The notes beneath the pieces were generated by a model. It saw only the letters and a list, made by a program, of their open reading frames with translations, was not told where the DNA came from and searched no databases. Shown here one piece after another: positions 3,854 to 43,901 of a stretch of DNA of 47,376 nt (position 1 is its first letter; every line of letters starts with the position of its first letter). Made by a program: the position numbers and the translations under genes. The DNA comes from a virus, in the IMG/VR virus record IMGVR_UViG_3300036863_000153, positions 1 to 47,376 of that record; one strand, 5' to 3'.

Positions 3854-4344
3854 TGCCTGAGATTATCGACCGCTTCACCGGCCCCTACGCCTTCCTGTCC
3901 AATTTCGCCGCTGCCCCGGTGCTGATGGACGGGGAGACCTACCCGACCGTGGAACATGCCTACCAGGCGGCCAAAGTGTGGCCACACGCCTGCGCGACGT
4001 ACCGCGGGTCGGACCTACGCTTCAAACCCTGGCGCACAATCATCCGGGAGGCATCCACCGCCTCTGCGGCTAAGCGCCTCGGCGGGCGGGCCCCACTGCG
4101 AGAGGACTGGGAACACGTCAAGGTAGGGGTGATGCGGGAGCTGCTCGAGCAGAAGTTTGCTCCCAGGACCCACTACCGTGAGCTGCTCCTCGCTACAGGA
4201 GATGCCACCCTGATCGAAGGGAACACCTGGGGCGATATCTACTGGGGCATGTGCCGCGGGAGGGGGACCAACATGCTCGGGAAACTCCTCATGGTCATTC
4301 GAGATGCAGGGAGGGTCGGTGCCAGCCCCAGCCCAGCCCCCTAA
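3853..4344 (+). CDS. NADAR domain (YbiA-like) protein
   Basis: About 163 residues from ATG 3853, which follows a purine-rich ribosome site (GGAGCGAGAG) and overlaps the upstream stop; ATG 3838 is less likely. The start region has FTGPYAFLSNF, then DGETYPTVEHAYQAAK, and the end has NTWGDIYWG and GTNMLGKLLMVIR: the full signature of the NADAR/DUF1768 family. Family members act on ADP-ribosylated or riboflavin-pathway N-glycosides. Some NADAR proteins remove ADP-ribose from guanine in DNA, reversing DarT-type toxins. In a phage, repair of host-inflicted DNA ADP-ribosylation is an attractive reading, but that is inference. It overlaps the 5' end of the polymerase gene by 41 bp. Confidence 0.9.
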   Translation: MPEIIDRFTGPYAFLSNFAAAPVLMDGETYPTVEHAYQAAKVWPHACATYRGSDLRFKPWRTIIREASTASAAKRLGGRAPLREDWEHVKVGVMRELLEQKFAPRTHYRELLLATGDATLIEGNTWGDIYWGMCRGRGTNMLGKLLMVIRDAGRVGASPSPAP

Positions 4345-7300
4345 AGCCGCCGCCCACCGCAAACCTCAGGCCTGTGTGGGGTGCTCCCTCTACGAGCGGG
4401 GACATGGGTTTGTCCCACCCTCCGGCCCAGCCAACGCGCCCCTGCTGTTCATGGGGGAAGCCCCTGGGTACGAGGAGGCCGCGACCGGGATCCCCTTCAT
4501 CGGCGCGGCCGGCTCGATGCTCGATCGGGTCCTGCGGCGAAACCAATTATCTAGGCAGGGGTTCCGGGTGGGGAATGTGCTGTCGTGCGTCCCCCCGGCC
4601 ATGGAGCTACGAGGTGCCAGCTATGAGTTCACCGCGATTGATCACTGTCGAGTACACCGTGACCCCCTCCTGGCCGAGCCTCATCAGGTCGTTATGGCGC
4701 TGGGTGCGACACCGCTCCGCACCCTCCTGGGTCTTCATGGTCACGACCGGATCCGAGTCGAAGAGTTCCACGGCACCGTACATCGGGATCCATCCGATCG
4801 GTTCTGGGTCGTGCCGAGTTTCCATCCGAGTCATCTCCAGCGAGGTGCCCATAACCTTATCGGAACGGTGAGCTACGACCTGCAAGTCGCCCTGGAGGTA
4901 TCGCGTGGCCAGTGGAAACCGCAACCGATCAACCTGGTCATCGACCCCCCGGTGGATTGGGTCGCGCAGTGGGTGGTACAACTCGAATCTGCCGCCTATC
5001 AGGATCCCGCGTCGACCGCGGTCGCGTGTGATATGGAGACCCCCGACAAGGCCGGCGGCAAGCCCGAGAACGAGCTCGGCCCCGATGACGAGAGCTACGA
5101 CATTCAGCGGTGGAACTTCGCCTGTCACCCCGACGAAGGGCTGACCCTCCCCAATCACCCGGCCTATCACCCCTGGATCAAGCGCATCCTGGAGCTGGGC
5201 TGTTACCACTACTGGTGGAACGGGAGCGGGTACGACTGGGACCGCACGCGCGCCGCGGGGTACCAGCCGATCGCGCGGTGGCAGATCGACCTGATGCTGG
5301 CTGCGCACATCCTCCAGAGCGATGTGCCCTTGGGGTTGGGGTTCTGGGCCCCCTTCTACTCCAACTTCGGCGCCTGGAAGCACCGGTCGAGTGCCGAGCC
5401 CGAGGTCTACGCCTGTATCGATGGCCCGCAGACCCTCCGCGTGGGGTACGGGATCATCGGTGACCTCCTGCAGCACGGCATGTGGCGCGCGTTCGAAGAG
5501 GACTGCCACGAGCTGTACCATGCGGTGCTCAAGCCGGCCCAGGATATCGGGATCCTCATTGACAAGGCCGAGCTCACCCAGTTCCATGAGGACCTGGCCG
5601 TCAAGCAGCGCCGGCTGCTGCATGAGATCCAAGGGGTGGTGCCAGAGGTCCTGCGCCCCCTGACCCAGGAGACCAAACGCGCCCCGACCGAGGGGGTGGT
5701 CCACCCGGCGGCGCGGACCCACAACCTCCGTACCGGGGAGGCCCTGAAGGATCAGCCCGACCCCCTGAAGCAGGATCTGTTCGCCCTGGGCGCAGTCCGG
5801 GTGAGCCAGGAGGTGCGGCGGGTGATCAAAGTGTGCGTCGCCTGCGGGAAGGAGGAGGTGCATGTTAAGCACCGCTGCGAGGACAAGACCCTCACCCCCC
5901 AGGTGGAGCTCCAGGAGAAGCTGGTCGTGCGGTGGTTCTGGCAGGAGCCCTTTAACCCCGACAGCGCCCAGCAGGTGCTCGGGTACCTGAAGTACCGCAA
6001 GCACAAGCCGGGCAAGAGTAAGCAGACCCGCGAGGACAGCGCCGATCGGGAGACCCTCCAGCGCCTCTGGCGGACCACCCAGGACCCCCTCTACAAGTAC
6101 CTGCTCGACTACCGAGCCATTAAGAAGGTGGATAGTACCTATGCCGTCCCAACCATGCGGAGAATTGACAAGGAGCTTGCGGCCGGCCGGGAGCCACGCA
6201 TACACCCGATCCCGACCTTCCGCCCCTCCATGCACCGCCTCAGCTACATCAGCCCCAACATCACGAATGTTGTCGCCGACAAGGATAAGAAGCAAACATT
6301 GGCTGCAGGGTTCCGACGGTGTGTGGTGGCCGCTGCGGGCTGTCGACTACTTGAAGTTGACTTCAGCGGCATCGAAGCAGTGGAGACCGGCTGGTATGCC
6401 CGTGACCCGGCCTACATTCGATTGGCGCGCCTCGGGGTACATGCTTACCTGGCCAGCCACCTCCTGGGCCGACCTGCGGATCTACGTTGGTCGGACGCTG
6501 ACCTCATTGCCTACTTCGCGGAGCTGAAGAAGGTCGACGCCTTCACCTACGACAAGGCCAAACGCTGCGTCCACGGCACCAACTACGGCCTCACCCCCAT
6601 GGGGATGGCCATGACCTTCCCCGATCTCTACAAGGACATCGCCGCCGCGGACAAGGTACAGCGGATCTACTTCGAGGTCTGTCCCGCCCTGCCCACCTGG
6701 CATGCGGCTTTGCGCCAGTTCGCCTATGACAAGGGCTGGTTGGGCGGCCCCGGCGCGGTGATCACGGGCGAGGACAACAGCTGCTACACCCAGTACCTCA
6801 AGAACCCCAATGGGTACAGCGGCGCCCCCTGGTGGCCGCACCCCTTCCAATATAAGCATTGGTTCTGGTCGGTGCTGCAGTACACCCGGCTCAACGAGAA
6901 GCAGTACCTGTGGCGGCAGAAGCGGGGGATGCCGACCATGGTCAACAACGAGGGGGTGAAGTTCGGGATCGGCTGGGGCGAGGACTCCAAGCGGGTGATC
7001 GCGCTGTACCCCCAGTCGACCGCCGCGGGCGTGCTGAAGCGATCCGCCCGGCCCCTCTTCGCCCGGCCGGATCACCCCAGCTACATTGGAACGACCTACT
7101 ATGATCGTACGCCTCTTCGGGCCCCTATCCATGATTCATTTCTCCTCGAGGTACCTGAGCGTGCATGGGACCGTGTTGTGGAGGCGGTCGCTCGCGAGAT
7201 GCAGAGGCCCATTGCCGAACAGCCTGTCCCTGCGGGTTGGGCGATGGGTACTCACCTCACAGTGGGGATTGAGGCCAAGGCCGGCCGCAATTGGCTCGAG

Positions 7301-7414
7301 ATGGAGAAGATCGAGGTCCCCAGCTTCCAGGCCAGCGGGGTGATCGAGAGCGACCAGTGGCCGGTGGAGGAGCAGGACGAGGATGATTGGGGGGAGATGG
7401 GGGTGGTGGCATGA
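4304..7414 (+). CDS. Uracil-DNA glycosylase / 3'-5' exonuclease / family A DNA polymerase fusion
   Basis: A 1036-residue multidomain replicase. Residues 24-181 form a family 4-like uracil-DNA glycosylase: C24, C27, C95 and C115 could bind a 4Fe-4S cluster, with GEAPGYEE (51-58), GIPFIG (62-67) and SFHPSHLQRG (172-181). Residues about 240-375 look like a DnaQ-type exonuclease with DxE (D243, E245), NGSGYDWD, and YACID. The polymerase domain has motif A VDFSGIEA (D about 686), motif B KRCVHGTNYG (about 752) and motif C IHDS (about 942-945). The usual Glu of HDE in motif C is Ser. An insert before the palm holds CVACGKEEVHVKHRC, a possible zinc site. A GTG at 4319, with GGGAGGG just upstream at 4309-4315, may be the real start. 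This is almost certainly the phage replicative polymerase. Confidence 0.95.
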   Translation: MQGGSVPAPAQPPKAAAHRKPQACVGCSLYERGHGFVPPSGPANAPLLFMGEAPGYEEAATGIPFIGAAGSMLDRVLRRNQLSRQGFRVGNVLSCVPPAMELRGASYEFTAIDHCRVHRDPLLAEPHQVVMALGATPLRTLLGLHGHDRIRVEEFHGTVHRDPSDRFWVVPSFHPSHLQRGAHNLIGTVSYDLQVALEVSRGQWKPQPINLVIDPPVDWVAQWVVQLESAAYQDPASTAVACDMETPDKAGGKPENELGPDDESYDIQRWNFACHPDEGLTLPNHPAYHPWIKRILELGCYHYWWNGSGYDWDRTRAAGYQPIARWQIDLMLAAHILQSDVPLGLGFWAPFYSNFGAWKHRSSAEPEVYACIDGPQTLRVGYGIIGDLLQHGMWRAFEEDCHELYHAVLKPAQDIGILIDKAELTQFHEDLAVKQRRLLHEIQGVVPEVLRPLTQETKRAPTEGVVHPAARTHNLRTGEALKDQPDPLKQDLFALGAVRVSQEVRRVIKVCVACGKEEVHVKHRCEDKTLTPQVELQEKLVVRWFWQEPFNPDSAQQVLGYLKYRKHKPGKSKQTREDSADRETLQRLWRTTQDPLYKYLLDYRAIKKVDSTYAVPTMRRIDKELAAGREPRIHPIPTFRPSMHRLSYISPNITNVVADKDKKQTLAAGFRRCVVAAAGCRLLEVDFSGIEAVETGWYARDPAYIRLARLGVHAYLASHLLGRPADLRWSDADLIAYFAELKKVDAFTYDKAKRCVHGTNYGLTPMGMAMTFPDLYKDIAAADKVQRIYFEVCPALPTWHAALRQFAYDKGWLGGPGAVITGEDNSCYTQYLKNPNGYSGAPWWPHPFQYKHWFWSVLQYTRLNEKQYLWRQKRGMPTMVNNEGVKFGIGWGEDSKRVIALYPQSTAAGVLKRSARPLFARPDHPSYIGTTYYDRTPLRAPIHDSFLLEVPERAWDRVVEAVAREMQRPIAEQPVPAGWAMGTHLTVGIEAKAGRNWLEMEKIEVPSFQASGVIESDQWPVEEQDEDDWGEMGVVA

Positions 7415-9467: not shown

Positions 9468-12400
9468 CTAGAAGTTGGGGGGTGGGCCTGGTGGGGGTGG
9501 CCCAGGCGGCGCGGGTTCGGGCTCCTCAAACGGGGCCGTCTCCACGCGGGGCTCGGCCGCCTCCAGCCGCTCGAGCAGGGCGGCCTGGCGTTTCTTGCGC
9601 CGCAGCTCCTCGCCCGAGGTCTGGGCGGTCTCGACGCGCTCGGTGCCCAGGAGCTCCTTGACCTCGCCCAGGGCCGCGCGCTTGAGCAGGGGGAACACCT
9701 TCTGCAGATAGTCCCGCTGGGCCGCGGGGGTACCCAAGGATCGGTAGTCGGGATCCTCAAGCACCGCCGGCATCTCTGCGCGCAGCACCCGTGCGTAGGT
9801 CTGGGCCAGCAGGGTATCGAGGCCGTAATCGCCGGTCTCCTTGAAATACACGCTCGAGCCCGACAACCCCACCCGCCGCACCTCTTCCTGTACGAAGTCA
9901 GCCTGGGTCCCACCGACCCCGGTGAGCGCCCGCACGCCCGGGTGGATCGATCGCACCGGCTCCCCGGTGGTCTGCGAGTAGGTCGGGGGGATGAGCCGCG
10001 AGGCCCCTGGGACCCGGCCCAGGCCCTCGGCGAGGGGGTAGACGGTACTCGCCGGGTCTTGGGTGGACGGACGCGGCGTGTTGCGGACCTGCGCCTCCTC
10101 CGGGCTGAACTCGCCGATGACATCCTTGACCTGCCCCAGGGGGGTCGCGTACCCCGCCAGGAACTGTCCGATGGTCCCAATGATCGCGTCGGCCGCCTCG
10201 TTGGGGCCCGGCCAGCCGTTGCGGGTCATCAGGTCGGCGATGGTGAGAGAGGTCCCCGCGGCGCGGGAGATACTCAGGAAGGCCTGGGCAAACTCCGCCC
10301 CCAGGAGATCCTTGGTATATTTGCCCTCGTAGTTGTTCCACATCGCGGTGGTCCAGTTGAGGGGGTTCCCACGACCGGTGGGGCCGGCCGCCTCGGCGTC
10401 CTTACCGGCCTGGTCCCAGTTGGTGTGTCGCCAGAAGTCCACCAGGACATCCCCGACCATGAGGTACTGCACAAAGGGGGCCGCGGCCCGGAGATCGAGC
10501 ATGTAGGGGTCCTTCCCCTCTCGGTCCACGCGGTACTGATAGAAGCGGGTGCCCTCCGCGCCGGGCTGACTCCGCACCACAATCGCCGCGCCGAGCAGGC
10601 CAAAGGTCCCGGAGGTCATCCGGGCCATCCAGCTGCTCCAGGTCGGCGCCGAGATCCCGGTGGCGTTCTGCACCTCCTTCCAGAGCTGCTCCTCCTGCGC
10701 GGTGAGATCCTGGATGGTGGTCTTGTGGGTCTTGATCTCCCCCCGGAGCCGATCGCGCCGCCGGCCGAGGATGTCCTGGGCGGTCAGCGCCGCATCGAGG
10801 GCCGATTGGGTCCCGGGGAGACTCTGTTGCGCCCGGGCTTGGAGCCGGGTGATCTGCCGTTGGCGGATGGCCCACTCGCGGGAGGTATTCTGGAGCTCCA
10901 GCAGGGCGCCCCCCAGCTCCCCCTGCGTCCGGGTGATGCCGGCCCGGACCCCGGGGATGACGTCGGTCTGGAACTGCTGCGCTTGGAGGCCACGATAGAG
11001 TCTCCCGCCGCCCAGGTGCTTGCCGGTCGAGGTCCAGCCGGCGTTGTCGAATGGGAGGCGAACGAGGTCCAGCAGGGCCGCGGGGGAGTGGTCCCAGATC
11101 CACCGGGGCGCCGCTGAGAAGTTGAACCGCGGGAACCGCTGCACGAGCTTGGCTGGCCAGTAGGACTGCACGAAGTTCACCAGGGCCGCGGGGACTGAGC
11201 GGTTGGCGAGCTGGCCGGCCCAGGTCATCTCGAGCGCGGCATTACTCGCATAGCGCACCATGTCTTGGACCTCGCGGTCGCCCCCGAACTTCTCCGCCAG
11301 CGCCGTACGGGAGGGGTCCATCAGGGCTTCCACCGGGTCCCGTCCACGGGCGCGGATCTGGGCGCGGAAGTGGGTGTCAAAGGTCAGCCCGCGGCCGGTG
11401 TACTCCTGCGCGCGGTTCCACAGGGTCAACCACCGCTGCACCTTGGGGCTGAGGAGCGTGTCCAGGATGACGGACCCAGACCCCTCAGTGGCGAGCTGTT
11501 CCCCCCCAGCAAACCCGATCATGTGCGCGGCTTCGTCGGGGTACTCGCTAAGGATCTTCAGCGTGCGCCGGGCGTCGGTCTGGCTCATCCCCTCGAGCAT
11601 CCCCGATTGGATGTTGTAGAGCTGCTCGAAGGTCTCGGCCTTGGCGGCGCGCAGGGGGGAGACCGCGAAGCCGGTATGCCGGGATCCCACCCGCTCTCGG
11701 AGGAGGGCCCCGGCGGTACGCCCAGCCCCCGGCTCGCCCAGGCCGGCGGCGTAGGGGATGGTCAAGGCGTGGTCCAGTAGATCCCAGGAGTACCGGCCGA
11801 CGGTGGTGTAGGCGTTTCGGGCGGCCGTGGCAAACCCCGAGGTCAGGAAGCTGTATTGGGAGTCGATCAGCTTGTCCCCAATGGTGCGCTTGGGTGGCTT
11901 CTGGAGCGTGTTCAGGAGGAGGTTTCGGGTGACCTGGGGGGTCGAGGTCTGCTCAGCAATCTGATCGAGGATCTCCGCAGCGGCCTGGCTAGATACCCGA
12001 CCGCGTGCCCCCCGCGGTGCACGACGTCCACTCCCCAGCGTACCAGCGAGGGCAGCCCCCATATCCAGACGATCAGCCACCTCATGGAGCTCATCGGAGA
12101 ATTGTTGCACATAATTCCCGTGCGCGCCCAGGATCCGCCCGGCTTCGCTGAGGGTGTGCATGTACTGCCGACCCACCTCCTCGCGGGTCATGCCCGGGAA
12201 GTCCGCGGGGTCGAATTTGACCTGGCCCTGGACGACGAGATCGGTGACCTGCCGACCGAGCCGCAGCGCCGCGTCCCGGTTGCCCCGCACCAGATGGAGC
12301 AGCTCCGGCGTGTCGGCCAGCTCTTCGACAAAGGTGTCCATGATGTCGCGGTCGAGGGTGGTCGCGCGGGTGGCCCCCTTGGGCCTGAGCGTGGGAGGCC

Positions 12401-15400
12401 CCGGGTGGATCAGGCCCGCCGGCCCCAGCTCCATCCCCTGGCCGGCTTGGCGGGTCGTGAGCTTATAGGAGGGCGGGAGATCGCCGGCCGCGGGCGCCGG
12501 CCGCTTCTGCTGGCCCGCCCGGCCCACCGCCACAATCTGCGCCGGGAGATCCTGCTGGAGCACGGTCCCCTTCACCGCCGCGGCCAGGGCGGCTTCCTCC
12601 TGCGGGGTCTTGGTCGCCGCGTAGGCCTTGGTGTACGCGCGGGAGTACGCCGCCGCCGCGACCTTCCAGGCCTTGTCCCAGTCGCCGTCCTCGATCGCCT
12701 GCTCGACCCGGCTGTACCAGGCCTCGCCCCCGTGGTCGGCTTCTACCTTCTTGAGCCACTTCTTGAGGGCCGAGCGATCTCCAGCTGGTGGGAGGCGCTC
12801 CAGGAACAGGGCCCCGGTCTCGCTCTTGAGGCGCTCGAGCAGCGACTGGCGATCGAACAGGCCTGGCTGGCGTGCGGATGGGCCCGGTGGGGATTCTAGA
12901 TCGAAGGCCGACGGTGGGGCCTGGCCCAGCTCGGGCATGAGCCGCTCCTCCATCCGCACCTTCTCCAGGCCCGGGAGCGGCACATCGCCGGTCTCCTCCT
13001 CCACGGGCAGGAACTCGGGGGGCTTCCGCAGCGGCTCTCGCTGGGTCGAGGGGTGCGGAGGTGGGGGCCCTTCCGATTCCTGCCCAAACAGCGGGACGCC
13101 ATAGTCGGGGGGTGGCCCGAGCGCGCCCTCCTCCCCCAGCTTCGAGGCGATGAGCTTCTGAATGCGATCGGGGGGTGGGGGGCCTTCCTCCTCGGCGGAC
13201 TTGCGGCCGGAGGGACGGGGCGGAGGCATCCCTTCCTCGCCTTCGAAGGCGGTGATCGGGGGGCCACCCTCACCACCCGGGCCGAGCATCCGCAGCTCGA
13301 GCTGCTCGGGGGTGATCAACCCGCGCCGCACCGCCTCCTCGCGCGCGGCCTGGAAGAAGGGCACCGTGTCCGGGTGGATCCCCGTTTCCCCGCCGGCTTC
13401 CTGCCAGATCCGCGTGGCCGTCAGGACCTCTCCGTCGTCCAGTTCGCGGGCGGCCTGCTGGTACCCGTCCAGGGCCTGGCCGCGTTCGGCCCGGTGCCCC
13501 AGCGGGTCCTCCCAGCCAATCAGGGTGTCGCCTTCGTGCCCCCCCTTGGCCAGGATCTTCGACCCGCGCGCGAGCGGACCCGCGCCGCGTTCGGCCAACC
13601 GGGCCCGGGCGACCGCCGCCGCCGCATCGGTGAGCCCGGTGCCACGCCCCTTCAGCACGGCCTCGCGAATCGCCGCGAGCATGTCGGCGCGCGTGACATG
13701 ACGGAACCCGCCCTCGGCCGCCTCGATCACCTGGTGGTACACAGGCGCCCCGGGGATCGCCCCACCCGCGGTCGCCCCGCGTTTGCGCGCTTCGGCAATC
13801 GCTTGTGAGATATCGCCCCCGAGCTCCTGCTGAATCGCCTCGAGCTGATGCGTGGTCGAGCCGCCCGGGATGTTCTCGTGGCGGAACTCGTCCAGCTCCC
13901 AGGCCATGGCAGCCAGCTCGCGGCGCACCGCGGGCGGGTAGGTGGCGGGATCCTCGGCCGGGCGGGCAGAGGGGTACGCCTCATAGCGGGTCTTGCCCTC
14001 GACCTCGACCTGGCGGCGCAGGGTTCGCGGCTGGCCGTGGATCTCGCCCCGGCGGCGCGGGCCGGCGTTGGGCCCTTCGGCGTACACCCGATCCAGCGGG
14101 CGCGGGGTGGTAATCCCCGGCAAGCGCGGTTGGTCGAGTGTGGGTGGGGCGCCGCCTAGCTCAGCTACAGACGGTGCCTCCGTGCGGCCTGGGAATGGGG
14201 TGCGCGGCTGTCGGAACAAGCTGGGCTGGGACGGCGGTGGAGCCAGCTCGGCCGTGCCAGCGGCCTCAGGAGCCTCGAGCGTGAGGGCCTGGTAGGGTTT
14301 CTCCCGCACCAGGCGCGGCGACCCAGGCGGGGCGGCCAGGCTGGCGGCCAGGGCCTCCTCCAGCGGGTCCGGCGGCGGCGAGGAGATCGCAATCCCGGGG
14401 CCAGAACCGACCTGATCCAGCGGCGGTGGCGCCTCGCCCGGCGGATAGGCGACAAAATCCGGTGGAGCGCCAGCCGCGCGCGCGGGCAGCTGCGTGGGTC
14501 CCTCGAGCCCGATCGCCCGGTTGAGATAGGGCGGGATCTCCGGTCCCCAGGCGGTCGGGTCCATCGGCGGGATCGGGACCGGGGCCTGCCGCAGCTGCGC
14601 GATCTGCTCGAGGTAGTCCTTGGCCTGCGAGGCCGTGTGGAAATCCGCGCGCGTCGACCCACTCGCGACCGCCCGCTCGCCAAACATCGCGGTGAGCTCG
14701 CTGGCCAGCCGCTGCTCCTCGGCCTGGTGCTGCGCGGCGGCGGCGCGGGCCATCACCAGCTGATCCAGCGGGGAGGGGGGCGGCCCGAGATCGGTCGGCA
14801 GCGCCCCGGTGGCATCGCCGAAGCTGGGGGCCCTGGCCTCGAGCGCCCGACGCGCCGCGCTGGCCCCTTCGAACCCCGCGTGGGTGGCGGCACCAAACGC
14901 CCCACCGGCCAGGGTCTGGGTGGTGAGCTCCCCCAGGGTCGGGAGGCGGTTCTCCTCGAGATAGGTCCGGGCGGTGCCGCCGATCGCGCCCAGGCCAGCG
15001 CCGTACGCCCCTTGGGCCCCGATCCGGCCGAGGGTGGTGGTGGCCCGGGCGGCGGGGTTGAACGCGCCCAGGATCGTCTCCATGGCGATCGTCGGGACGC
15101 TGTAGTCCTCCCGGGGGCCAAAGGTCTTCTCGTACCACTGGGCGGCCCCTTCGCCGAGGCCCGCGCCGCCCATGCCTCCGAGGTAGGTTCCGTAGCCGGG
15201 CGCGATCAGGGATCCCCCGTACGCCCCCGCAATGGCCGGGACCACCCGCAGCCCCGTGGTCGCCGCGAGATCGAAGGTCGACGGGCTCGGCGGCGGGGGG
15301 ATCAACTGGGGGGCCTTGCGCGGGGCCGGCGTGCGGATCGGCGCGAGGTTCTCCGCCCCAATCAGCTGGGGATCGATCAGCTGGTAGCTGTCAGGATCCT

Positions 15401-15533
15401 CCACCTCGATCGCCCGGACCAGCGCGGCATCATCGATGTCATCGAACTTGCCGGGGTTCTCCTCGCGGTAGTACTTGGCCAACTCAAGCGGCGAGAGAAA
15501 CCCAACCCGGCCGTGGAGTGTGGGGCTGCCCAT
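9468..15533 (-). CDS. Giant virion protein, probable DNA-ejection protein (T7 gp16-like role)
   Basis: A 2021-residue protein, the largest in the window. The N-terminus (LELAKYYREENPGKFDDIDD) is a segment common at the start of large phage internal proteins. Residues about 80-230 are glycine/alanine-rich and mildly hydrophobic (VVPAIAGAYGGSLIAPGYG), suggesting membrane interaction. Residues about 250-900 are proline-rich and probably disordered. The C-terminal half is helical and resembles large polyvalent phage proteins (LPD38-like, a tentative match). The C-terminus ends in a proline run. Position at the end of the structural operon after nozzle, acetyltransferase-like and glycine-rich genes matches T7 gp16. 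No lysozyme or transglycosylase motif was recognised. Start ATG has GGGAGG 6-8 bases upstream. Confidence 0.8.
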   Translation of the reverse strand: MGSPTLHGRVGFLSPLELAKYYREENPGKFDDIDDAALVRAIEVEDPDSYQLIDPQLIGAENLAPIRTPAPRKAPQLIPPPPSPSTFDLAATTGLRVVPAIAGAYGGSLIAPGYGTYLGGMGGAGLGEGAAQWYEKTFGPREDYSVPTIAMETILGAFNPAARATTTLGRIGAQGAYGAGLGAIGGTARTYLEENRLPTLGELTTQTLAGGAFGAATHAGFEGASAARRALEARAPSFGDATGALPTDLGPPPSPLDQLVMARAAAAQHQAEEQRLASELTAMFGERAVASGSTRADFHTASQAKDYLEQIAQLRQAPVPIPPMDPTAWGPEIPPYLNRAIGLEGPTQLPARAAGAPPDFVAYPPGEAPPPLDQVGSGPGIAISSPPPDPLEEALAASLAAPPGSPRLVREKPYQALTLEAPEAAGTAELAPPPSQPSLFRQPRTPFPGRTEAPSVAELGGAPPTLDQPRLPGITTPRPLDRVYAEGPNAGPRRRGEIHGQPRTLRRQVEVEGKTRYEAYPSARPAEDPATYPPAVRRELAAMAWELDEFRHENIPGGSTTHQLEAIQQELGGDISQAIAEARKRGATAGGAIPGAPVYHQVIEAAEGGFRHVTRADMLAAIREAVLKGRGTGLTDAAAAVARARLAERGAGPLARGSKILAKGGHEGDTLIGWEDPLGHRAERGQALDGYQQAARELDDGEVLTATRIWQEAGGETGIHPDTVPFFQAAREEAVRRGLITPEQLELRMLGPGGEGGPPITAFEGEEGMPPPRPSGRKSAEEEGPPPPDRIQKLIASKLGEEGALGPPPDYGVPLFGQESEGPPPPHPSTQREPLRKPPEFLPVEEETGDVPLPGLEKVRMEERLMPELGQAPPSAFDLESPPGPSARQPGLFDRQSLLERLKSETGALFLERLPPAGDRSALKKWLKKVEADHGGEAWYSRVEQAIEDGDWDKAWKVAAAAYSRAYTKAYAATKTPQEEAALAAAVKGTVLQQDLPAQIVAVGRAGQQKRPAPAAGDLPPSYKLTTRQAGQGMELGPAGLIHPGPPTLRPKGATRATTLDRDIMDTFVEELADTPELLHLVRGNRDAALRLGRQVTDLVVQGQVKFDPADFPGMTREEVGRQYMHTLSEAGRILGAHGNYVQQFSDELHEVADRLDMGAALAGTLGSGRRAPRGARGRVSSQAAAEILDQIAEQTSTPQVTRNLLLNTLQKPPKRTIGDKLIDSQYSFLTSGFATAARNAYTTVGRYSWDLLDHALTIPYAAGLGEPGAGRTAGALLRERVGSRHTGFAVSPLRAAKAETFEQLYNIQSGMLEGMSQTDARRTLKILSEYPDEAAHMIGFAGGEQLATEGSGSVILDTLLSPKVQRWLTLWNRAQEYTGRGLTFDTHFRAQIRARGRDPVEALMDPSRTALAEKFGGDREVQDMVRYASNAALEMTWAGQLANRSVPAALVNFVQSYWPAKLVQRFPRFNFSAAPRWIWDHSPAALLDLVRLPFDNAGWTSTGKHLGGGRLYRGLQAQQFQTDVIPGVRAGITRTQGELGGALLELQNTSREWAIRQRQITRLQARAQQSLPGTQSALDAALTAQDILGRRRDRLRGEIKTHKTTIQDLTAQEEQLWKEVQNATGISAPTWSSWMARMTSGTFGLLGAAIVVRSQPGAEGTRFYQYRVDREGKDPYMLDLRAAAPFVQYLMVGDVLVDFWRHTNWDQAGKDAEAAGPTGRGNPLNWTTAMWNNYEGKYTKDLLGAEFAQAFLSISRAAGTSLTIADLMTRNGWPGPNEAADAIIGTIGQFLAGYATPLGQVKDVIGEFSPEEAQVRNTPRPSTQDPASTVYPLAEGLGRVPGASRLIPPTYSQTTGEPVRSIHPGVRALTGVGGTQADFVQEEVRRVGLSGSSVYFKETGDYGLDTLLAQTYARVLRAEMPAVLEDPDYRSLGTPAAQRDYLQKVFPLLKRAALGEVKELLGTERVETAQTSGEELRRKKRQAALLERLEAAEPRVETAPFEEPEPAPPGPPPPGPPPNF

Positions 15534-18478: not shown

Positions 18479-18578
18479 GCCCCCTCCACCCACCCCGCCA
18501 GCACGCCTCGACCACGAGCAGGGCCAGGACCCCGAGGAAAAACGACCCGACACACGCGCCGATCAGGAGAGGAATCAT
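18465..18578 (-). CDS. 37-residue membrane mini-protein
   Basis: A short frame from ATG 18578 to TAG 18465. It has an ideal ribosome site (GGAGG, 6 bases upstream) and its ATG overlaps the stop of the nozzle gene as TGATG, so it is likely translated. The product starts MIPLLIGACVGSFFLGVLAL and continues hydrophobic to about residue 24, then is basic and glycine/tryptophan-rich, which gives a single membrane helix with the positive end inside. Function is unknown; lysis (holin or spanin component) or superinfection exclusion are possibilities. It overlaps the next gene by 14 bp. Confidence 0.6.
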   Translation of the reverse strand: MIPLLIGACVGSFFLGVLALLVVEACWRGGWRGHGWS

Positions 18579-21500
18579 CACGCACCTCCGGGGGTTGAGG
18601 CCGCTACCACTGCATTGCCCATCGTCCGGGCGGGATCGAGATCATCGTTGGCGAGGAAGAGGGGTACCCACTTGTCGTCCCCACTCTCCCAGTCTTCCAC
18701 TCTCACCTCGGACTCCTCCCGGTACAACCAGAAGGGGCTGGCCGAGGTGAAGAGGTGCGCGAACAGCACACCCTTGGTGGCGTTGAAGTTGACCGATCGC
18801 TTCATCTTCACCCCGCCTGTGGATGGGATCGCATAGGTGGAGGTGTTGAGCGCCGCTCCCGGCTCCCCGTAGGTGATGATCTGCCAATCGACTTGGGCCG
18901 AGGACCGCAGCGTCACAAAGGCCTCGATCGGCTTCTGCCACCGGCCTTCCATCCCGGGGAACGGGCGCTCCTCCGACTCCCAGCGGGTGAGCGCCAGGGG
19001 CTCCTCATCGAAGATCGGCTGCCAGCGGTAGAATTTCCCATAGTTGGCGTCGGTCGCCCGCAGGCGGAACAGCCGCCCCCGCTGCTTGGCGAAGGCAATC
19101 TGCTGAATCCCCCGCCCGTTGAAGGTCAGCGCGTTGCTCTGTACCGCAAGGGCCTGGTCGATGTCAATCACCACGGTTTTGGCGACGTTGAAGGTGTCGG
19201 CTTCGAGCAGGTACCCCTTCAGCCATTTGTCGGCGTAGCTGCCGAAATTTTCCCAATTGGTGTTCCACCCCGGGATCCGCGGCGGTTCGGGGTCGGTCAG
19301 CCACTCGATCTTGTAGCGGATCCAGGGCAGGCAGGCCCCGGTGGGGCGGAGACGGATCTGCTGGGCGAGGACCGCGCCCCAGGAGTAGGCGATCTTCCGC
19401 CGCCCGCTGGCGACCAGGCTCAACGAGGCCGCCGCGGTGACCGATCCATTGTTGGAGGTATATTCCACATCCGCGGTGACGGTGGCGCCTTGGGTGTCGT
19501 AGGTGATCAGACACCCCCAGACATAGCCCTCCCCACCCGGCATCTCTTCCCAGGGGGTGGCCTCGGTGAACACAATGTGGGGCTCGAGATGTCGGGACAC
19601 CCCCGCGAGATTGAGCGCCAGCCCTGCACCGGTCGGGGCGTTCCCGCGCAGCTCGACCGAGACATTCCGGGCCCGCATTGGGGCGGATCCAAACGGCTCG
19701 AAGCTATAGGTCTGGTTGCCTACCACGCCCACGATCGACTGCGCGGCGACTGTGGTGCCCTCGTCGTTGAGGAAGGCCTGGGCGGTGATCGTGGCGGTAC
19801 CGATGTCGCCCGTGACCCGGATCTCCTGCCAGAGCTTTTCCTGGAACGGCTTCCCCCAGTTGTCACACCCGGTCCGGGCGGTCCAGGCGATGGCGGCGCC
19901 GTCGTCGCTGAACCCCGAGTGGGTGTAGACCTGGCCAGTGGCGTTTCCCCCGAGGAGGAGGGTGCCCGCTACCCCTTGCACCGGCTCGCTGTAGCAGGTC
20001 GCGACCGGCTCGGCGAAGAGGTAACTCCGCCAGGTCTTGTCCTTGAAATTGTAGATCAGTTGCCGACGGGTACCCCCGGTGTCCTGGTAGCTCACCCAGA
20101 GCTCGTCATCGTGGTAGGCCAGCTGGTACGCAGTCGGCACGCTGTAGTCGACCGGGTTGAACCCATTGACCGCGACCCCCTTGAAGAGTTTCCCGAGGTT
20201 CTCGTCCGAGAGGGGTTCGGGGGCGGCCCCCTGGGTTAGGCGCACGCCGAAGGGGCTGCCGAAGGCGATCCCGTAGGGGGTCAAGGCCAGCGCCCAGCGG
20301 CTCACGAGCCCCTCATGGCATTGGGTCGGCTCGGTGTCCCAGCTCCCATCGGCGTTGAGCAGGATCGAGTACATCCGGGTACGGCTGAACACAAATCCCG
20401 CCGACCCGATCGAGCCCCCACTCATGAGCTCCTCGGTCGCGGCGCAGACATCCTTGAACTCGGCGGCCGGCCACTGCTCGGGGAATCCCAGCTTGGATCG
20501 GTAGAGGCGCCCGGGCTGGAGGGGGTCCCCCAGCGCAAACACGTACTGCTCCACCATGAAGAAGGTCGTCACCAGCTGGTTGAGCACGGTCGCGCCCGAG
20601 GCATTGACCGAGGTCACCGGCATGTCGTTGTCGATCTCGAGCGCCTCGTCGGTGATGCGGGTATCGTCGGCCACGGTGACATCAATCGTGCCCCCGTCGG
20701 CCGCGTTCTGGCCGGCGAAGAACCAGTCGGTCGTGCCGGTCGCATCACCCCCACGGACATAGGCCTGTTGGCGCAGGGCCGCGGTCCCCGAGGCGGTGGG
20801 GGTGACCCGGATGGTCTGCCGCAAGGGGTTGAGCCAGGCGGTCTCGGCCTGCACCGCCGAGGGGTTCCCCTTACTCCCGTTGACCGGGTGGTAGTTCACC
20901 ACGCGCACATCGTAGGGGCTGGCCCCGACGTCCGAGGCATCCGGGCCGCTGCCGCCGTAGAGGAACCAGCTGTCGAACTGGAACTGGATCGGCTGGTTGG
21001 TGTTGGTCTGGAAGGCGATCACAATCCCAGTGACCGTGTTCCACCCGACCGTGCCCGTGGGGGTGGGGGTGCCCATGCGCTGCCACTCTCCGCGGCGGAG
21101 CGGGACGCCCAGGATCCCAAATTCGCCCCAGATGTTGCGGCCGGCGGCGATCTGCGGGATGTCCTGGCGATTGAGATCGCGGCCCCCGGTGGCGTTGATG
21201 AGCGACAGGCGATCGTCGCCCGGCTGCTCGGTCTTGAACTGCTCGAGCAGGGTACGCAGGCGCAGGTTGTCGCTGGCGTCGAGGCCCGACTGGAGGAACT
21301 CGAAGTAGTTCTGCAGATCGTTGGGGCGGAAGCTCTTGAACCAGGCGTTCCCGTTACCACCGGCCGTCCCCGGGAGGAACCCCGCGATGAACACCGGGTC
21401 CAGCACGAAGTAGATCTTGATCTCCTCGAGGTACTGGGGGTCGCTCACGTTGAACAAAATGTGGGTCTGGTCGTCATCACTGGCCGCGATGGTATTGGCC

Positions 21501-22267
21501 AGGTCGAGGAAATCGAGGTTGAGGGCCGCGATCGGATGGCTGATGAAGCTGGAGTACCCCGTCGCCGCCGCCCCCACCACCGTGGTCGCCTGGACCCCCT
21601 GCGCGGCAAACACGTCGATCACCACCGGGGCGCCGGAGGCGTTGGGTGGGGTCGAGCGGTCCACCCCCGCGTTAGCGACCCAGGTCGCCGCGGCCGAGGA
21701 CCCATTGGGGTCGGCCGCGTCAAAGGTACAGATCTCCTTGCGCGACTGCCCAAGGAGGGCGGTCGAGGTGAGCACCCCCGGCGGGATCCCGTAGACTTCG
21801 ACCGCCCCGGTGCGGCTGATCTTCCGGTTGCGCGAGCGGTCCCCGATGACCACGTAGGGGGTCCCGCTCAGAGGCATGTTCACCCCGCAGAAGCTCAGGG
21901 GGTCACCGCTGTAGCCGCTGTCGACATTGGTGAGGGCGCCCGTCGTGCCCCGGAACAAATTGGCGTTGGAGCCGGCGAACCGCGCGAAGGCCCCAGCCGC
22001 GGGGTCGTTCAGCCGGAAGAGGCTATGCACCCGCTCCCCCCCCGCGGTGGTGGCGAGCGCGGTCTGACCCGTGCGGACCGTGAGGGGTTCGCCGTACTTG
22101 CTCACGACGTTGACCATCCGGGACAGTTCGCCCGGGTCCAGATCGTCGATCGCGTCCTGCACATTCAAGCCACGCCGCCCGATGCGGTACATCGGCATGT
22201 CGTAGGGCTGGGGCGCGTGGCCCGGCCACACGAGGGATTCGGCGGTGGGGCGATCAGGGATGGCCAT
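18578..22267 (-). CDS. Large tail nozzle / stabilisation protein candidate
   Basis: A 1229-residue, beta-rich protein. The N-terminus has DLDPGELSRMVNVVSKYGEP, and around residue 570-650 it has LGDPLQPGRLYRSKLGFPEQ, a segment type seen in podovirus nozzle and P22 gp10-like stabilisation proteins. It is rich in Trp, Gly and short strands throughout. The T7 gp12 nozzle is about 800 residues, so this version is long; the extra C-terminal domains may be lectin-like. Gene order (two adaptor-like genes upstream, acetyltransferase-like and ejection genes downstream) supports a tail-tube role. Confidence 0.7.
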   Translation of the reverse strand: MAIPDRPTAESLVWPGHAPQPYDMPMYRIGRRGLNVQDAIDDLDPGELSRMVNVVSKYGEPLTVRTGQTALATTAGGERVHSLFRLNDPAAGAFARFAGSNANLFRGTTGALTNVDSGYSGDPLSFCGVNMPLSGTPYVVIGDRSRNRKISRTGAVEVYGIPPGVLTSTALLGQSRKEICTFDAADPNGSSAAATWVANAGVDRSTPPNASGAPVVIDVFAAQGVQATTVVGAAATGYSSFISHPIAALNLDFLDLANTIAASDDDQTHILFNVSDPQYLEEIKIYFVLDPVFIAGFLPGTAGGNGNAWFKSFRPNDLQNYFEFLQSGLDASDNLRLRTLLEQFKTEQPGDDRLSLINATGGRDLNRQDIPQIAAGRNIWGEFGILGVPLRRGEWQRMGTPTPTGTVGWNTVTGIVIAFQTNTNQPIQFQFDSWFLYGGSGPDASDVGASPYDVRVVNYHPVNGSKGNPSAVQAETAWLNPLRQTIRVTPTASGTAALRQQAYVRGGDATGTTDWFFAGQNAADGGTIDVTVADDTRITDEALEIDNDMPVTSVNASGATVLNQLVTTFFMVEQYVFALGDPLQPGRLYRSKLGFPEQWPAAEFKDVCAATEELMSGGSIGSAGFVFSRTRMYSILLNADGSWDTEPTQCHEGLVSRWALALTPYGIAFGSPFGVRLTQGAAPEPLSDENLGKLFKGVAVNGFNPVDYSVPTAYQLAYHDDELWVSYQDTGGTRRQLIYNFKDKTWRSYLFAEPVATCYSEPVQGVAGTLLLGGNATGQVYTHSGFSDDGAAIAWTARTGCDNWGKPFQEKLWQEIRVTGDIGTATITAQAFLNDEGTTVAAQSIVGVVGNQTYSFEPFGSAPMRARNVSVELRGNAPTGAGLALNLAGVSRHLEPHIVFTEATPWEEMPGGEGYVWGCLITYDTQGATVTADVEYTSNNGSVTAAASLSLVASGRRKIAYSWGAVLAQQIRLRPTGACLPWIRYKIEWLTDPEPPRIPGWNTNWENFGSYADKWLKGYLLEADTFNVAKTVVIDIDQALAVQSNALTFNGRGIQQIAFAKQRGRLFRLRATDANYGKFYRWQPIFDEEPLALTRWESEERPFPGMEGRWQKPIEAFVTLRSSAQVDWQIITYGEPGAALNTSTYAIPSTGGVKMKRSVNFNATKGVLFAHLFTSASPFWLYREESEVRVEDWESGDDKWVPLFLANDDLDPARTMGNAVVAASTPGGA

Positions 22268-39556: not shown

Positions 39557-40021
39557 TTAGGCTCCTGGGAGTCTGGTGGGGCGCGGGATCCACTGGCCGA
39601 TCCCCGTCCCCGGCCCGAGGTGTTCGCAGTAACTCAAGGGCATCAGGCGATCGGGGGGTTGGCCGACGCGGGCTGGGTCGCCATTGGGGGCCCAGCGGGC
39701 GCGGAACAACAGGGCGCTGCGGTCCTCCGGCTCACAAAAGAGCGACCCCGAGACCCGGTAGTCCTGCCGGATGATCGTCGCCGAGAACTGCCCATCGTAG
39801 ACCGCCTGCACCCCTTCGTGGGTGACCAGGAGCGGCCGGCGGATCCCCGGCTCGATGAGCACGAGCACGATGTCCCCGACCGCGACGGCGAGGGGGGCCT
39901 TGGGCACCGGGGCGTAGGGGGCCGCTGGAGCCTGTGCGGGAGCCTGGGCCGCTGGAGCCCCTTTAGTCGTAGAGGGTCCCGCCCCAGCTCCGCCCGGAGG
40001 GGTCGTAGTACCAGTGCTCAT
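39557..40021 (-). CDS. Small protein with Pro/Ala-rich start, unknown function
   Basis: A 154-residue protein from ATG 40021 (GGAGGATGAGG just upstream), overlapping the end of the terminase nuclease gene by 59 bp. Residues 10-45 are low-complexity (PGGAGAGPSTTKGAPAAQAP and onward). The second half is structured (VGDIVLVLIEPGIRRPLLVT, then FSATIIRQDYRVSGSLFCEP), a beta-barrel-like pattern. Two copies of the CCGCTGGAGC repeat lie in its Ala/Pro-rich coding stretch. No family recognised. Confidence 0.6.
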   Translation of the reverse strand: MSTGTTTPPGGAGAGPSTTKGAPAAQAPAQAPAAPYAPVPKAPLAVAVGDIVLVLIEPGIRRPLLVTHEGVQAVYDGQFSATIIRQDYRVSGSLFCEPEDRSALLFRARWAPNGDPARVGQPPDRLMPLSYCEHLGPGTGIGQWIPRPTRLPGA

Positions 40022-40919
40022 CCTCATCCTCCTCGATCCCCAGGGCATCCTGGGGCGTGGCGACTAGCTTCGCGTCGTCCGCGGTGACATCGGTGTTGCG
40101 GTAATCCGGGCGCTTCCCATCCCCATATTTGGCCGCCCGCAGCTTCTCTTCCCGGCGCCGCTTCCGCCGGTCGTCCAGGGGCTCGCGCTCGCCGGCCATC
40201 AACCGGTAGGCGACAAAGTGGGCAATCGCCAGCGCAATGATACAGTCATCGTGGGCGCCGCGTCCCGCCTCGGCTTCCCAGAGCGCGCCTTCGGTTTGGA
40301 AGTCCCGCAGCTCATCGATGGTGAGGGTGGAATTAATGCGGAGGTCGCTGTAGCCGCTGAGGGGGTCGACCCCGACGATGCCGTTATGAAATTGGTCGAG
40401 CAAAATCGGCCGGGTACGCGGGGTCGTCATCCACCCCATCCGCGTGGTGAAGCGTTTCTGCGGGTCGGCCTGGTCGAGGACCTCCCAGATGTAGAAGTGG
40501 CGGTAGCCGAGGTGCAGCTGGAGCGTGTCCTGGACCGAGAGCCCGTGGTTGTTGCACTCGATCGCGGCCATCGCCTCCTGCCCGTCGGGCCATTTGTAGA
40601 GGGTGCCGATCGCTTGAATGATGTAGGCGAAGGCCTTGGGGGTGCAGGTTTCGCTCACAAACTGGGCCACCTGCTCCTCGGGCTCCTCAATGGTGCCCAT
40701 CCGCAGGACGTCGCACACCGAGCGGTCCTGCCCCAGGCCATCCGACACGTCGCACCCCAGGATGTAGCGGTGGCCTTTCCGCGGGCGCTCCCACATCTGG
40801 AGGGTGTCGAAGAGGTTGGGCTGCTCGGCCAGCTCGGGCCCGTTGAGGCGGTGGAAGCCAAAGCCGGGCGGGATGGCGTAGGCCGGGCGGGCCTCGGGGA
40901 GCAGGGCGGCGAGGTTCAT
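39963..40919 (-). CDS. terL: Terminase large subunit, nuclease domain (separate chain)
   Basis: A 318-residue protein with the RNase H-like nuclease plan of phage terminases: LGCDVSDGLGQDRSVCDVL (D57), MAAIECNNHG (E121) and GAHDDCIIALAIAH (D224/D225), in the expected order. It lacks the ATPase, which is encoded separately upstream at 41083-42540. The N-terminal 50 residues (PAYAIPPGFGFHRLNG) lead directly into the nuclease fold. The nuclease would cut concatemeric DNA during packaging. Its ATG overlaps the stop of a zinc mini-gene (ATGA), so the parts are translated together. Confidence 0.88.
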   Translation of the reverse strand: MNLAALLPEARPAYAIPPGFGFHRLNGPELAEQPNLFDTLQMWERPRKGHRYILGCDVSDGLGQDRSVCDVLRMGTIEEPEEQVAQFVSETCTPKAFAYIIQAIGTLYKWPDGQEAMAAIECNNHGLSVQDTLQLHLGYRHFYIWEVLDQADPQKRFTTRMGWMTTPRTRPILLDQFHNGIVGVDPLSGYSDLRINSTLTIDELRDFQTEGALWEAEAGRGAHDDCIIALAIAHFVAYRLMAGEREPLDDRRKRRREEKLRAAKYGDGKRPDYRNTDVTADDAKLVATPQDALGIEEDEDEHWYYDPSGRSWGGTLYD

Positions 40920-41086
40920 TGGGGGACCTCCTCGGGGATCACCTCGACCTGGATCCCCTCGGCCTCGTCGACCCCGTGGTCCTGGAGGAGGTGCCGCACC
41001 AGCTGTTCCATCAGCGCCCGCGGATCGCGGGTCGGGGTGGACCGGAAATCACAGAGGGGGCAGGTCGCCTGCATCTGGCGGATCAT
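40916..41086 (-). CDS. C2H2-like zinc mini-protein between the two terminase genes
   Basis: A 56-residue frame from ATG 41086 to TGA 40916. Both ends overlap the flanking genes by ATGA: its start with the ATPase stop and its stop with the nuclease start, so translational coupling is strong. Cys9, Cys12, His32 and His37 (CPLCDFRS..., LVRHLLQDHG) form a C2H2-like ligand set with a longer-than-usual 19-residue spacing. A polar or acidic tail follows (DEAEGIQVEVIPEEVPQ). It may mediate contact with DNA or join ATPase and nuclease chains; that is inference. Confidence 0.65.
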   Translation of the reverse strand: MIRQMQATCPLCDFRSTPTRDPRALMEQLVRHLLQDHGVDEAEGIQVEVIPEEVPQ

Positions 41087-42540
41087 GCCGGGGTCTCCTC
41101 GACCGCTCGAGCCTCGGCTGGAGCCTCAGGGGGGTCACCCTCAACCAGGTTGGGCGTCTCGACCTGCACCGGGCGGGGCGAGGGGTCGTTGGTGACCAGA
41201 TCCCGCGCCCGCTCCGTGGTTTTCTGGGCCGCCGCCCGCATGGCCGCCTGCTCGGTGCGGAGCTCGGCCTGGAGCGCCTCGTGATCCGCCAGGAGATCTC
41301 CATGGGGGCGTACCGTCAGTAGGTCGATCAAGGGGCGCCGCTGCTGCTCCACCCGATCGATCACCACAATGGGGAAGATCGACCGGCCACTATACTGGAA
41401 GGCCTCCTCGGGCTCGGCGGGGTACTCCTCCAAAAACTTGTAGAGCTCGCCCTTCTCCAAGGCCTCGAGCTTCTTGCGCTCGTACCAATAGAGCTGCTCC
41501 TTGGCGAGCGAGACCCCGCGGCGCATAAATCTGGGGCCGTGCTCCTGCACCCGGCGCGCGAAGGCGAGCGTGTCGGGGAGGGGCACCCACAGGGCGGGCA
41601 CGGGGAGCCAATACTTCGATCGCTCCGCGTACCAGGGGATGAAAATGTTGATCGCGCGCCCCAGGCCCCGGGAGGCCAGCTCCCACTCCCGGTGCCACCA
41701 GTTGTGGCGGCCCTTGGCGGTGGATTCCTTGGCCATGAAGGTCCGGGGCGAGATCGGGATCGCCGGCATCAACCCGTCGTCGATCTGCTCGGGGCGCTCC
41801 CAGGTCGAGAGCTCCGTGAGGTGGGCGAGGGAGTAGGTCTTGCTCCGGCCCAGGTTGCCCTTGGTCCCGCCCTCCTCAGCCAGGCCGCCTTTCATCGATT
41901 TGCCCGACTCGACAATCACGCTGGAGCCGGTCTTAAACACCAGATGCTTGTCTTTGGTGTGGTAGGTCTCGGCGGGCTTGAGCCACCACGGGAGGTTGGC
42001 CACCGCGAGCTCGTACATCCCGAAAATGCCCTGGGAGCCGCTGTTCTCGGGCACGTCCGAGGCAATGAGCGCCTTCACATATCCATGCGTCGTGGTGCGA
42101 TGGGCCAGGCACGATTGGCAGAAGGTCGAGGCCCCCAGCTGCCGCCCTTTGAGCAAATTGAAGAGGAGGCCGTCGGGGTGCTGGGTGCTCCAGCGGGTGT
42201 GTTCCAAGGCCGCGAGCTCCCCGAGAATCAGCTGCTGACTCTCCCAGAGGGGGTACATCGGCTGCAGGCGCTGCCCTTCGGATTGAATCAGGCAGTAGCG
42301 TTGCGCCCAGTAGGGATAGCTCACCTTCACCAGCAGCCGCTCATTGGCGACAAACGCCTCCTCCTCGCGCGAGAAGGGGCGGATCGGCTGGCGCTTGTCG
42401 GGGTCCCAGAGCCGCTGCAGCCGCTGGGCCATGGCGTGACAGGTCTCGACCGGGATCACCTCAAGGCCCTGCGGGAGGGCGTCGCGGAGCCCCCGCTCGA
42501 GCTGGGTCTGCCGGGCGGCGATCACCTCGGGGTGGTACAC
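41083..42540 (-). CDS. terL: Terminase large subunit, ATPase domain (separate chain)
   Basis: A 485-residue protein from GTG 42540. It has a deviant Walker A, LLKGRQLGASTF (129-140, K131), and SLAHLTELSTWE (237-248) in the Walker B position, both typical of terminases (KxRQxGxST; HLTE-W). EEYPAEPEEAFQYSGRS (371-387) is the segment that normally bridges ATPase and nuclease. Here about 95 charged and Pro-rich residues follow instead of a nuclease, ending in a stop. Together with 39963-40919 it makes a two-chain terminase motor. GTG start follows the upstream stop by 2 bases. Confidence 0.85.
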   Translation of the reverse strand: MYHPEVIAARQTQLERGLRDALPQGLEVIPVETCHAMAQRLQRLWDPDKRQPIRPFSREEEAFVANERLLVKVSYPYWAQRYCLIQSEGQRLQPMYPLWESQQLILGELAALEHTRWSTQHPDGLLFNLLKGRQLGASTFCQSCLAHRTTTHGYVKALIASDVPENSGSQGIFGMYELAVANLPWWLKPAETYHTKDKHLVFKTGSSVIVESGKSMKGGLAEEGGTKGNLGRSKTYSLAHLTELSTWERPEQIDDGLMPAIPISPRTFMAKESTAKGRHNWWHREWELASRGLGRAINIFIPWYAERSKYWLPVPALWVPLPDTLAFARRVQEHGPRFMRRGVSLAKEQLYWYERKKLEALEKGELYKFLEEYPAEPEEAFQYSGRSIFPIVVIDRVEQQRRPLIDLLTVRPHGDLLADHEALQAELRTEQAAMRAAAQKTTERARDLVTNDPSPRPVQVETPNLVEGDPPEAPAEARAVEETPA

Positions 42541-42542: not shown

Positions 42543-43247
42543 TCAGCCCCCCTCGCCCTCAGGCTCGACCAGTTCCGCCTCGGCCGCTGGAGCGTGGGCT
42601 TCGTCCCCATACAGGAGCTTGTCCGTCAGCTGGGTCAGCTTCTCCAAGGCCCCCACCCCCAGCCCGCCCCCGCCCTGGCCGCTGGAGTTTTGGTTGTTTT
42701 GTTGAATAATCAGGCCTTGGCCCTTGGGGAGCATCCGCCCCATGTCCAGGGCGAGCTCCTGGTGCTCGAGGCGCGGCTGATAGAGCAGCTGCCCGGTGCC
42801 GCGGCAGGTCTCGCAGGGGCCGGGGCCAGGGTTGGGCACCTGGGGTGTGGGGTCAGGGGTGAGCGTGCCCGTCCCCGCGCAGTCACCACAGGCCCCCTCG
42901 TAGGGCGCGGCCTTCTTCATCACATCCGCCACGACCGCCGGGAGCCGCGCCGCCACCACCTGGGCCGAGAGCACCCGCCCGCGCAGGTGCGCCGCCCGCT
43001 CGATCTCCTGCAGCAGCTGCCCGGGGAGGATGTTCCCCTTGGCGCAGATCTCGGCGAGGGTCCAGCGTGCATGGTCGGGGTCGCCCAGCAGCCCGAGGAT
43101 ATAGGCGAGATCGGGCGTGAGCGGGGCGAGGCTGAGGTACCCCACCAGCCGCCGCCGGCCGCCGAGATCGTGCTCGAGGGTGGTGAGCTCCTCCACCACG
43201 GTCGGGGTGAAGACCTTCGTCGGGCGGGTGAGGGCGCCTTTACCCAT
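42543..43247 (-). CDS. Putative small terminase subunit with a CxxCxGTG zinc site
   Basis: A 234-residue protein immediately upstream of the terminase ATPase, the usual place for the small subunit. Helices at about 20-110 (WTLAEICAKGNILPGQLLQE) could form the DNA-binding part. Residues 120-155 carry CGDCAGTGTL and CETCRGTGQL, two DnaJ-type CxxCxGxG zinc motifs, which are unusual in terminase small subunits. The C-terminus is Gln/Asn/Gly-rich (QNNQNSSGQGGGG), then a helix and an acidic tail. DNA recognition for packaging is the likely role, but it rests on position. Confidence 0.6.
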   Translation of the reverse strand: MGKGALTRPTKVFTPTVVEELTTLEHDLGGRRRLVGYLSLAPLTPDLAYILGLLGDPDHARWTLAEICAKGNILPGQLLQEIERAAHLRGRVLSAQVVAARLPAVVADVMKKAAPYEGACGDCAGTGTLTPDPTPQVPNPGPGPCETCRGTGQLLYQPRLEHQELALDMGRMLPKGQGLIIQQNNQNSSGQGGGGLGVGALEKLTQLTDKLLYGDEAHAPAAEAELVEPEGEGG

Positions 43248-43536
43248 GCGCTCCCGCGGTCGAACGGTCCCGCAGGACGGTCAGGACGGGCGGGGTGGTC
43301 AAGAGGTGCGGCTCCAGCCGACCCAGGTACTCCAGGGCGATCCGGTTGAGATCACCGATGGTCAGGGCCCCGATGGTCGAGGGCACCCCGTACATCCCCG
43401 GGTACCTCGCCGGGATGGGCAGCCGCTGGAGCCGATAGGGGGCCAGCCCGGCCAGCGGGACCGCGCCCAGGAGGGTGAGGAACCCTCGCCGGCTGAGCAC
43501 CGCTGGAGCCCTGAGGACCGCTGGAGCCCCGCGCAT
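43240..43536 (-). CDS. Small protein with a twin-arginine-like N-terminus
   Basis: A 98-residue protein from ATG 43536, which overlaps the upstream stop as TGATG and follows GGGAGGGG; a GTG at 43545 is too close to that site. Residues 15-33 read SRRGFLTLLGAVPLAGLAP, which fits a Tat signal (S-R-R-x-F-L, then a hydrophobic run). Before it lie two copies of (G/R)APAVL produced by an 18-bp tandem repeat. The remainder (YGVPSTIGALTIGDLNRIAL) is helical. A chance basic-hydrophobic pattern is possible. The gene overlaps the putative small terminase start by 8 bp. Confidence 0.6.
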   Translation of the reverse strand: MRGAPAVLRAPAVLSRRGFLTLLGAVPLAGLAPYRLQRLPIPARYPGMYGVPSTIGALTIGDLNRIALEYLGRLEPHLLTTPPVLTVLRDRSTAGAHG

Positions 43537-43901
43537 CAGTGCCACCCCTCCCGCTGCCCCTGCTCCAGCCGCGACAGCCGCCGCGGATCATCGGGTTCGG
43601 CGTGCAGGCGCTCGTACTCGGCCAGGATCTGATCCTCGCTGGGCAGCTGCCCCAGGCTCCGGGTGAGGGTGAGTTCGATCTCGGCCATCTCGGCCGCCAG
43701 CTCGGTGTCCACCGTGGTGACCACCAGGCCCGGATCGGCCGCGGTCGCCTCGGTCTGGGTCCAGCCCTGTGCCGCCAGCTCCTGCGCCTTCAAGTCGTTG
43801 GCCCGCTCGAGTGCTGCGGCAATCCGCCCCAGCTGCTTGAGGAGGATCCCCCCCGCCTGCCATTTGCGCAACCCCCGCCGCACCGCACCGCCCCAGCCCA
43901 T
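43536..43901 (-). CDS. Small helical protein of unknown function
   Basis: A 121-residue, charged helical protein (LLKQLGRIAAALERANDLKA, ELAAEMAEIELTLTRSLGQL). It starts with a glycine/tryptophan and basic segment (MGWGGAVRRGLRKWQAGG). Coiled-coil character is likely. It is the second gene of the late operon and could be a regulator or virion assembly factor. No family recognised. Confidence 0.6.
   Translation of the reverse strand: MGWGGAVRRGLRKWQAGGILLKQLGRIAAALERANDLKAQELAAQGWTQTEATAADPGLVVTTVDTELAAEMAEIELTLTRSLGQLPSEDQILAEYERLHAEPDDPRRLSRLEQGQREGWH

Follow-up and report, generated by a model that had tools for sequence, protein, structure and literature searches.

Separate ATPase and nuclease genes for a T4-type terminase in a large clade of uncultivated phages, with changing genes at their junction

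Organization of the terminase locus

We analysed a 47-kb IMG/VR virus record over its whole length of 47,376 nucleotides, which is referred to here as the window. The first-pass annotation of this DNA had described an ATPase, a zinc mini-protein and a nuclease as separate open reading frames (ORFs) on the minus strand, joined by ATGA overlaps, and all three were recovered with that arrangement at the following positions.

41083-42540, minus strand: ATPase gene (485 aa, GTG start), encoding the TerL ATPase (motor) as a separate protein
41086-41298, minus strand: C-terminal tail of the ATPase (residues ~415-485), with a predicted helix at 415-448 and then disorder
41083-41086, minus strand: ATGA overlap of 4 nt between the ATPase stop and the mini-protein start
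40916-41086, minus strand: mini-protein gene (56 aa) in the TerL junction, with a C2H2-type set of residues (C9, C12, H32, H37); a probable passenger
40916-40919, minus strand: ATGA overlap of 4 nt between the mini-protein stop and the nuclease start, with AGGAGGT upstream
39963-40919, minus strand: nuclease gene (318 aa), encoding a separate RNase H/RuvC-like TerL nuclease

The four cysteine and histidine residues listed for the mini-protein were confirmed in its translation. Shine-Dalgarno-like sequences lie upstream of the mini-protein start (AGGAG) and of the nuclease start (AGGAGGT), and GC content by codon position is phage-like for all three genes (0.75/0.39/0.89 in the mini-protein versus 0.67/0.45/0.88 in the ATPase), which fits real genes. 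A further claim, that the ATPase ends in an added 95-residue tail, was correct only in part: a tail exists, but it consists of a single predicted helix followed by disorder and is variable in relatives. As its length differs among relatives, and it is shortened or missing in distant members, we rejected it as a special feature.

Elsewhere in the window, we observed a protein of 1036 aa in which a uracil-DNA glycosylase domain is combined with a family A DNA polymerase (4304-7414, plus strand), and two very large proteins of 2021 and 1229 aa (9468-15533 and 18578-22267, both minus strand) that have no PHROGs match, the larger having no Pfam match either.

Identity of the ATPase and nuclease

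The ATPase matched the phrog_2 TerL family weakly in a profile search (3.8e-06), and the best PDB match of its AlphaFold2 model (mean pLDDT 85) in Foldseek was the ATPase domain of T4 gp17 (E=7.8e-14), identifying it as a P-loop ATPase domain with the TerL fold. Its Walker A is a variant, LLKGRQLGAS, of which K131, R133, Q134 and G136 are invariant in an alignment of 30 relatives; E243 of an HLxE motif at the Walker B position and E272-S273 of an ESTA motif at 272-275 are likewise invariant. Unlike T4-type TerL, in which the Walker A lysine occupies the classical GK[S/T] position, the protein has its invariant lysine (K131) at the start of the loop, six residues ahead of the usual place. The variant is lineage-wide, and so is not in itself an indication of inactivity. 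In two relatives (L007 and L020), the Walker A loop holds an insert of ~250 residues after ATPase residue 137, which begins with Cys and ends with His-Asn in the manner of an intein, and the L020 insert contains a LAGLIDADG-like GGLLDGEGS motif; Walker A loop inserts of similar length in five further relatives (L030, L034, L060, L118 and L156) are suggested by a gap in the HMM match.

The nuclease matched the PDB entry for the RB49 gp17 nuclease by sequence (9.6e-11), and the best PDB fold match of its AlphaFold2 model (mean pLDDT 80) was T4 gp17 (4e-10). Its D-E-D triad is intact, with D57, E121 and D224/D225 invariant in 32 relatives. Comparison of the window with its nearest relatives gave dN/dS values of 0.23-0.27 (ATPase) and 0.11-0.16 (nuclease), indicating that both halves are under purifying selection.

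As judged from sequence comparison and modelled folds, the outer two ORFs are the halves of a T4-type TerL (gp17; PHROG 2, Pfam Terminase_6N/Terminase_6C), with the same ATPase and RNase H-like folds and the same D-E-D triad. They differ from it in being two genes with two predicted polypeptides, between which unrelated genes are allowed; membership of the TerL family therefore applies to the domains and not to the architecture, which in that family is a single polypeptide. Their packaging function is presumed, because most of the relatives are metagenome contigs.

Distribution of the split state

Searches with both halves and their alignments as queries yielded 147 loci containing both domains, 86 of them non-redundant, with fused phage isolates included. 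The ATPase and nuclease lie on separate ORFs in 56 of the 86 non-redundant relatives and on a single ORF in 30, a ratio that reflects sampling by similarity to the window and is not a frequency among phages generally. The proposal of two separate chains was thus borne out. All close relatives of the window are split, including the nearest two, L001 and L002, whose ATPases and nucleases are 70-83% identical to those of the window. A short linker connects the two modules in fused relatives, as in T4-type TerL. Among the split loci, the two genes adjoin directly or share a few bases in 29, are separated by inserts of 0.14-0.8 kb in 24, and by ~3.5-3.7 kb in the other three.

On the tree, the split or fused label requires six changes, of which at least four are forced by strong branches. 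Several fused rows (L060/L133, L064, L097, and a clade of eleven comprising L122-L145 and relatives) are nested within the split group, suggesting re-fusion. Secondary re-fusions have probably occurred, as far as can be read from a sequence tree whose root, and hence the direction of single changes, is uncertain. Within this large clade of uncultivated phages, the split is ancient and has been inherited.

Against genome contigs, the ATPase query recovered five loci (one split, L096, in an Acidobacteria bin, and four fused) and the nuclease query recovered no matches. All five derive from metagenome-assembled genomes, and so no host can be assigned securely.

Variable contents of the junction

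Three different junctions occur in the window, L001 and L002, which are mutually closest: these contain the zinc mini-protein, a Tad2-like gene and nothing, respectively. The occupants identified in relatives are as follows.

L001, 1923-2144: Tad2-like (anti-Thoeris) protein, PF11195, 1e-24
L003, 4466-4750: Tad2-like protein, matching solved anti-Thoeris Tad2 structures by sequence, 5e-18
L016, L017 and L096: a common TAT-signal-like protein
L030, L067, L071, L152 and L154: CxxC mini-proteins (DnaJ-type proteins are among the CxxC cargo of the junction)
L076: a CxxC mini-protein that looks HNH-like by eye, for which Pfam gave no confirmation
L056/L061: a subtilase cluster, with subtilisin-like proteases (L056, 2500-3723; L061, 1884-3152) in 3.6-kb inserts
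L019: a radical-SAM cluster

Unrelated cargo of this kind spans 0.14-3.7 kb in the relatives, and the presence of cargo requires 17 changes among the split rows of the tree. By sequence, the occupants of L001 and L003 belong to the Tad2-like anti-Thoeris family, to which the occupant of the window is unrelated. The junction repeatedly holds a CxxC mini-protein (window, L030, L067, L071/L152/L154 and L076), and most of them look unrelated to one another in sequence.

In three close pairs of filled and empty loci (L029/L030, L116/L117 and L066/L067), the cargo lies between the ATPase stop and the nuclease start, indicating that the extra gene enters at the seam. In the L029/L030 pair, the ATG within the ATGA of the empty junction serves as the start codon of the added gene, and the nuclease begins with GTG instead of ATG at the same codon.

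Two genes upstream of the ATPase in the window resemble junction cargo of other loci. Directly upstream is a 234-aa protein with a DnaJ-like CxxCxGxG region (42543-43247, minus strand), and comparable zinc motifs are present at the L071, L152 and L154 junctions. A 101-aa protein with a TAT-like start (43240-43545, minus strand) also lies upstream of the ATPase rather than in the junction, and bears a weak similarity to the L016/L017/L096 junction protein (30% identity to the L096 version).

For the mini-protein itself, we found no homologs in viral contigs or phage records. It bears a weak resemblance to DUF1059 (PF06348), scoring 16.1 bits, below the Pfam cut-off of 21.1. We considered and rejected an HNH endonuclease identity, as there was no match to an HNH family, and the 56-aa sequence has C9, C12, H32 and H37 and no asparagine.

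Alternative explanations for the split

The first-pass annotation had suggested a three-component motor, in which the zinc mini-protein would be a dedicated adaptor tethering the nuclease to the ATPase or sensing DNA. The position of the gene between the two halves, its tight ATGA coupling to both and a plausible C2H2 site agree with this, as do the other CxxC mini-proteins at the junctions of L030, L067, L071, L152 and L154. A conserved zinc component was, however, rejected on the homolog search of viral contigs and phage records together with the differing junction contents of the relatives: the protein is missing from L001 and L002 despite the close similarity of their ATPases and nucleases, 29 of the 56 split loci carry no gene between the halves, and Tad2-like, subtilase and radical-SAM proteins are among the occupants elsewhere. 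When the same three-gene order was sought in relatives, as had been recommended, its two-gene part was found and the third component was absent. We consequently consider the three-component motor improbable. We infer that the zinc mini-protein is a passenger, although it is conceivable that it binds the motor as an accessory particular to this lineage.

Programmed frameshifting, by which the frames would be fused into a single TerL polypeptide, might be expected from the overlap of a few nucleotides in most of the abutting loci, and is very unlikely given that several inserts hold whole genes and stop codons over up to 3.7 kb, that in the window the reading frame would have to shift twice in succession, through the mini-protein, and that canonical -1 slippery heptamers were found in only three of the 56 split loci. 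Ribosome-binding sites are moreover enriched at the nuclease start, a Shine-Dalgarno sequence of at least 4 nt preceding 64% of nuclease starts compared with 21% of internal start codons. We give equally little credence to an intron or intein remnant, in which a group I intron or homing endonuclease would have made the split and RNA or protein splicing would still join the halves. There are precedents for such an event: split terL transcripts are reported to be spliced in Jug phages (PMC12363816), the TerL of Serratia phage 92A1 is in pieces around a weakly GIY-YIG-like ORF, and the L007 and L020 inserts place inteins at the Walker A of this very family. Those inteins, however, sit within the ATPase and not at the junction, where no intein sequence was found; an Rfam search detected no intron in the window or in ten loci; 4-nt overlaps leave no room for an intron at many junctions; and the ORFs all have starts and ribosome-binding sites of their own. 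The earlier argument against an intron therefore held, and a frameshift origin was rejected as well. Sequencing error or gene decay is the least credible explanation; frameshift errors are possible in single metagenome contigs, but dozens of independent contigs, which come from many metagenomes, are broken at this same domain boundary, genes intervene there, and dN/dS is low in both halves, so that this reading is refuted for practical purposes.

A probable two-polypeptide TerL with a cargo site

We conclude with good confidence that TerL is here genuinely made up of two polypeptides, that its junction is a site of changing cargo and that the zinc protein is a passenger. A T4-type TerL would be made as two proteins, each translated independently: a packaging ATPase, and an RNase H-like nuclease for headful or concatemer cutting. 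The break falls in the inter-domain linker, leaving each catalytic module whole. The two proteins may associate non-covalently at the portal, perhaps by contact of the ATPase C-terminal helix with the N-terminal segment of the nuclease; the motor ring would translocate DNA, with the nuclease recruited for cutting. The junction accepts small genes with both halves left unbroken, and its unrelated occupants turn over, the 56-aa zinc protein being the present occupant, probably translated by stop-start coupling, and not a conserved part of the motor.

Comparison with known systems distinguishes this arrangement from other divided phage genes. In Jug phages, terL is present as several ORFs, the fragments of which are rejoined by mRNA splicing (PMC12363816), whereas in the loci studied here no intron was found and the pieces are complete domains. 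The nearest isolate precedent that we found is the T4-like Serratia phage 92A1 (L164; Straboviridae; OR088902.1, 100654-103616), which has separate ATPase and nuclease-bearing ORFs with another ORF, of 236 aa, between them; the three are annotated as a terminase and two hypothetical proteins, and the ATPase piece matches the PHROG family phrog_5989. It differs in that TerL is interrupted within the ATPase region, with the end of the ATPase kept on the second piece, in that the intervening ORF is weakly GIY-YIG-like, and in belonging to a different lineage. The genes-in-pieces ribonucleotide reductase of phage Aeh1 is a case of a phage enzyme that is made as two functional proteins after an insertion, although the enzyme is a different one and the inserted gene is a homing endonuclease.

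According to a 2021 review, the nuclease domain of TerL is universal among tailed phages; the review presents TerL as a single protein that contains the two domains (PMC7824862). Within the open-licence literature that we searched, we found no report of a conserved two-gene TerL, which does not prove priority. A natural two-protein terminase would allow the motor to be assayed with or without the nuclease, and at any ratio, with no engineered truncations. The role of the nuclease domain in translocation is a long-standing question.

The variable junction is a place in which to seek small phage genes, for example those for anti-defence proteins, and annotation pipelines that expect a single long TerL may miss such phages. 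More broadly, we see an even chance that these loci represent a lineage of tailed phages in which the motor and nuclease are separate and possibly exchangeable, in which covalent coupling would not be needed for translocation or cutting, and in which the seam between the two genes serves as a standing slot for cargo, including anti-defence genes.
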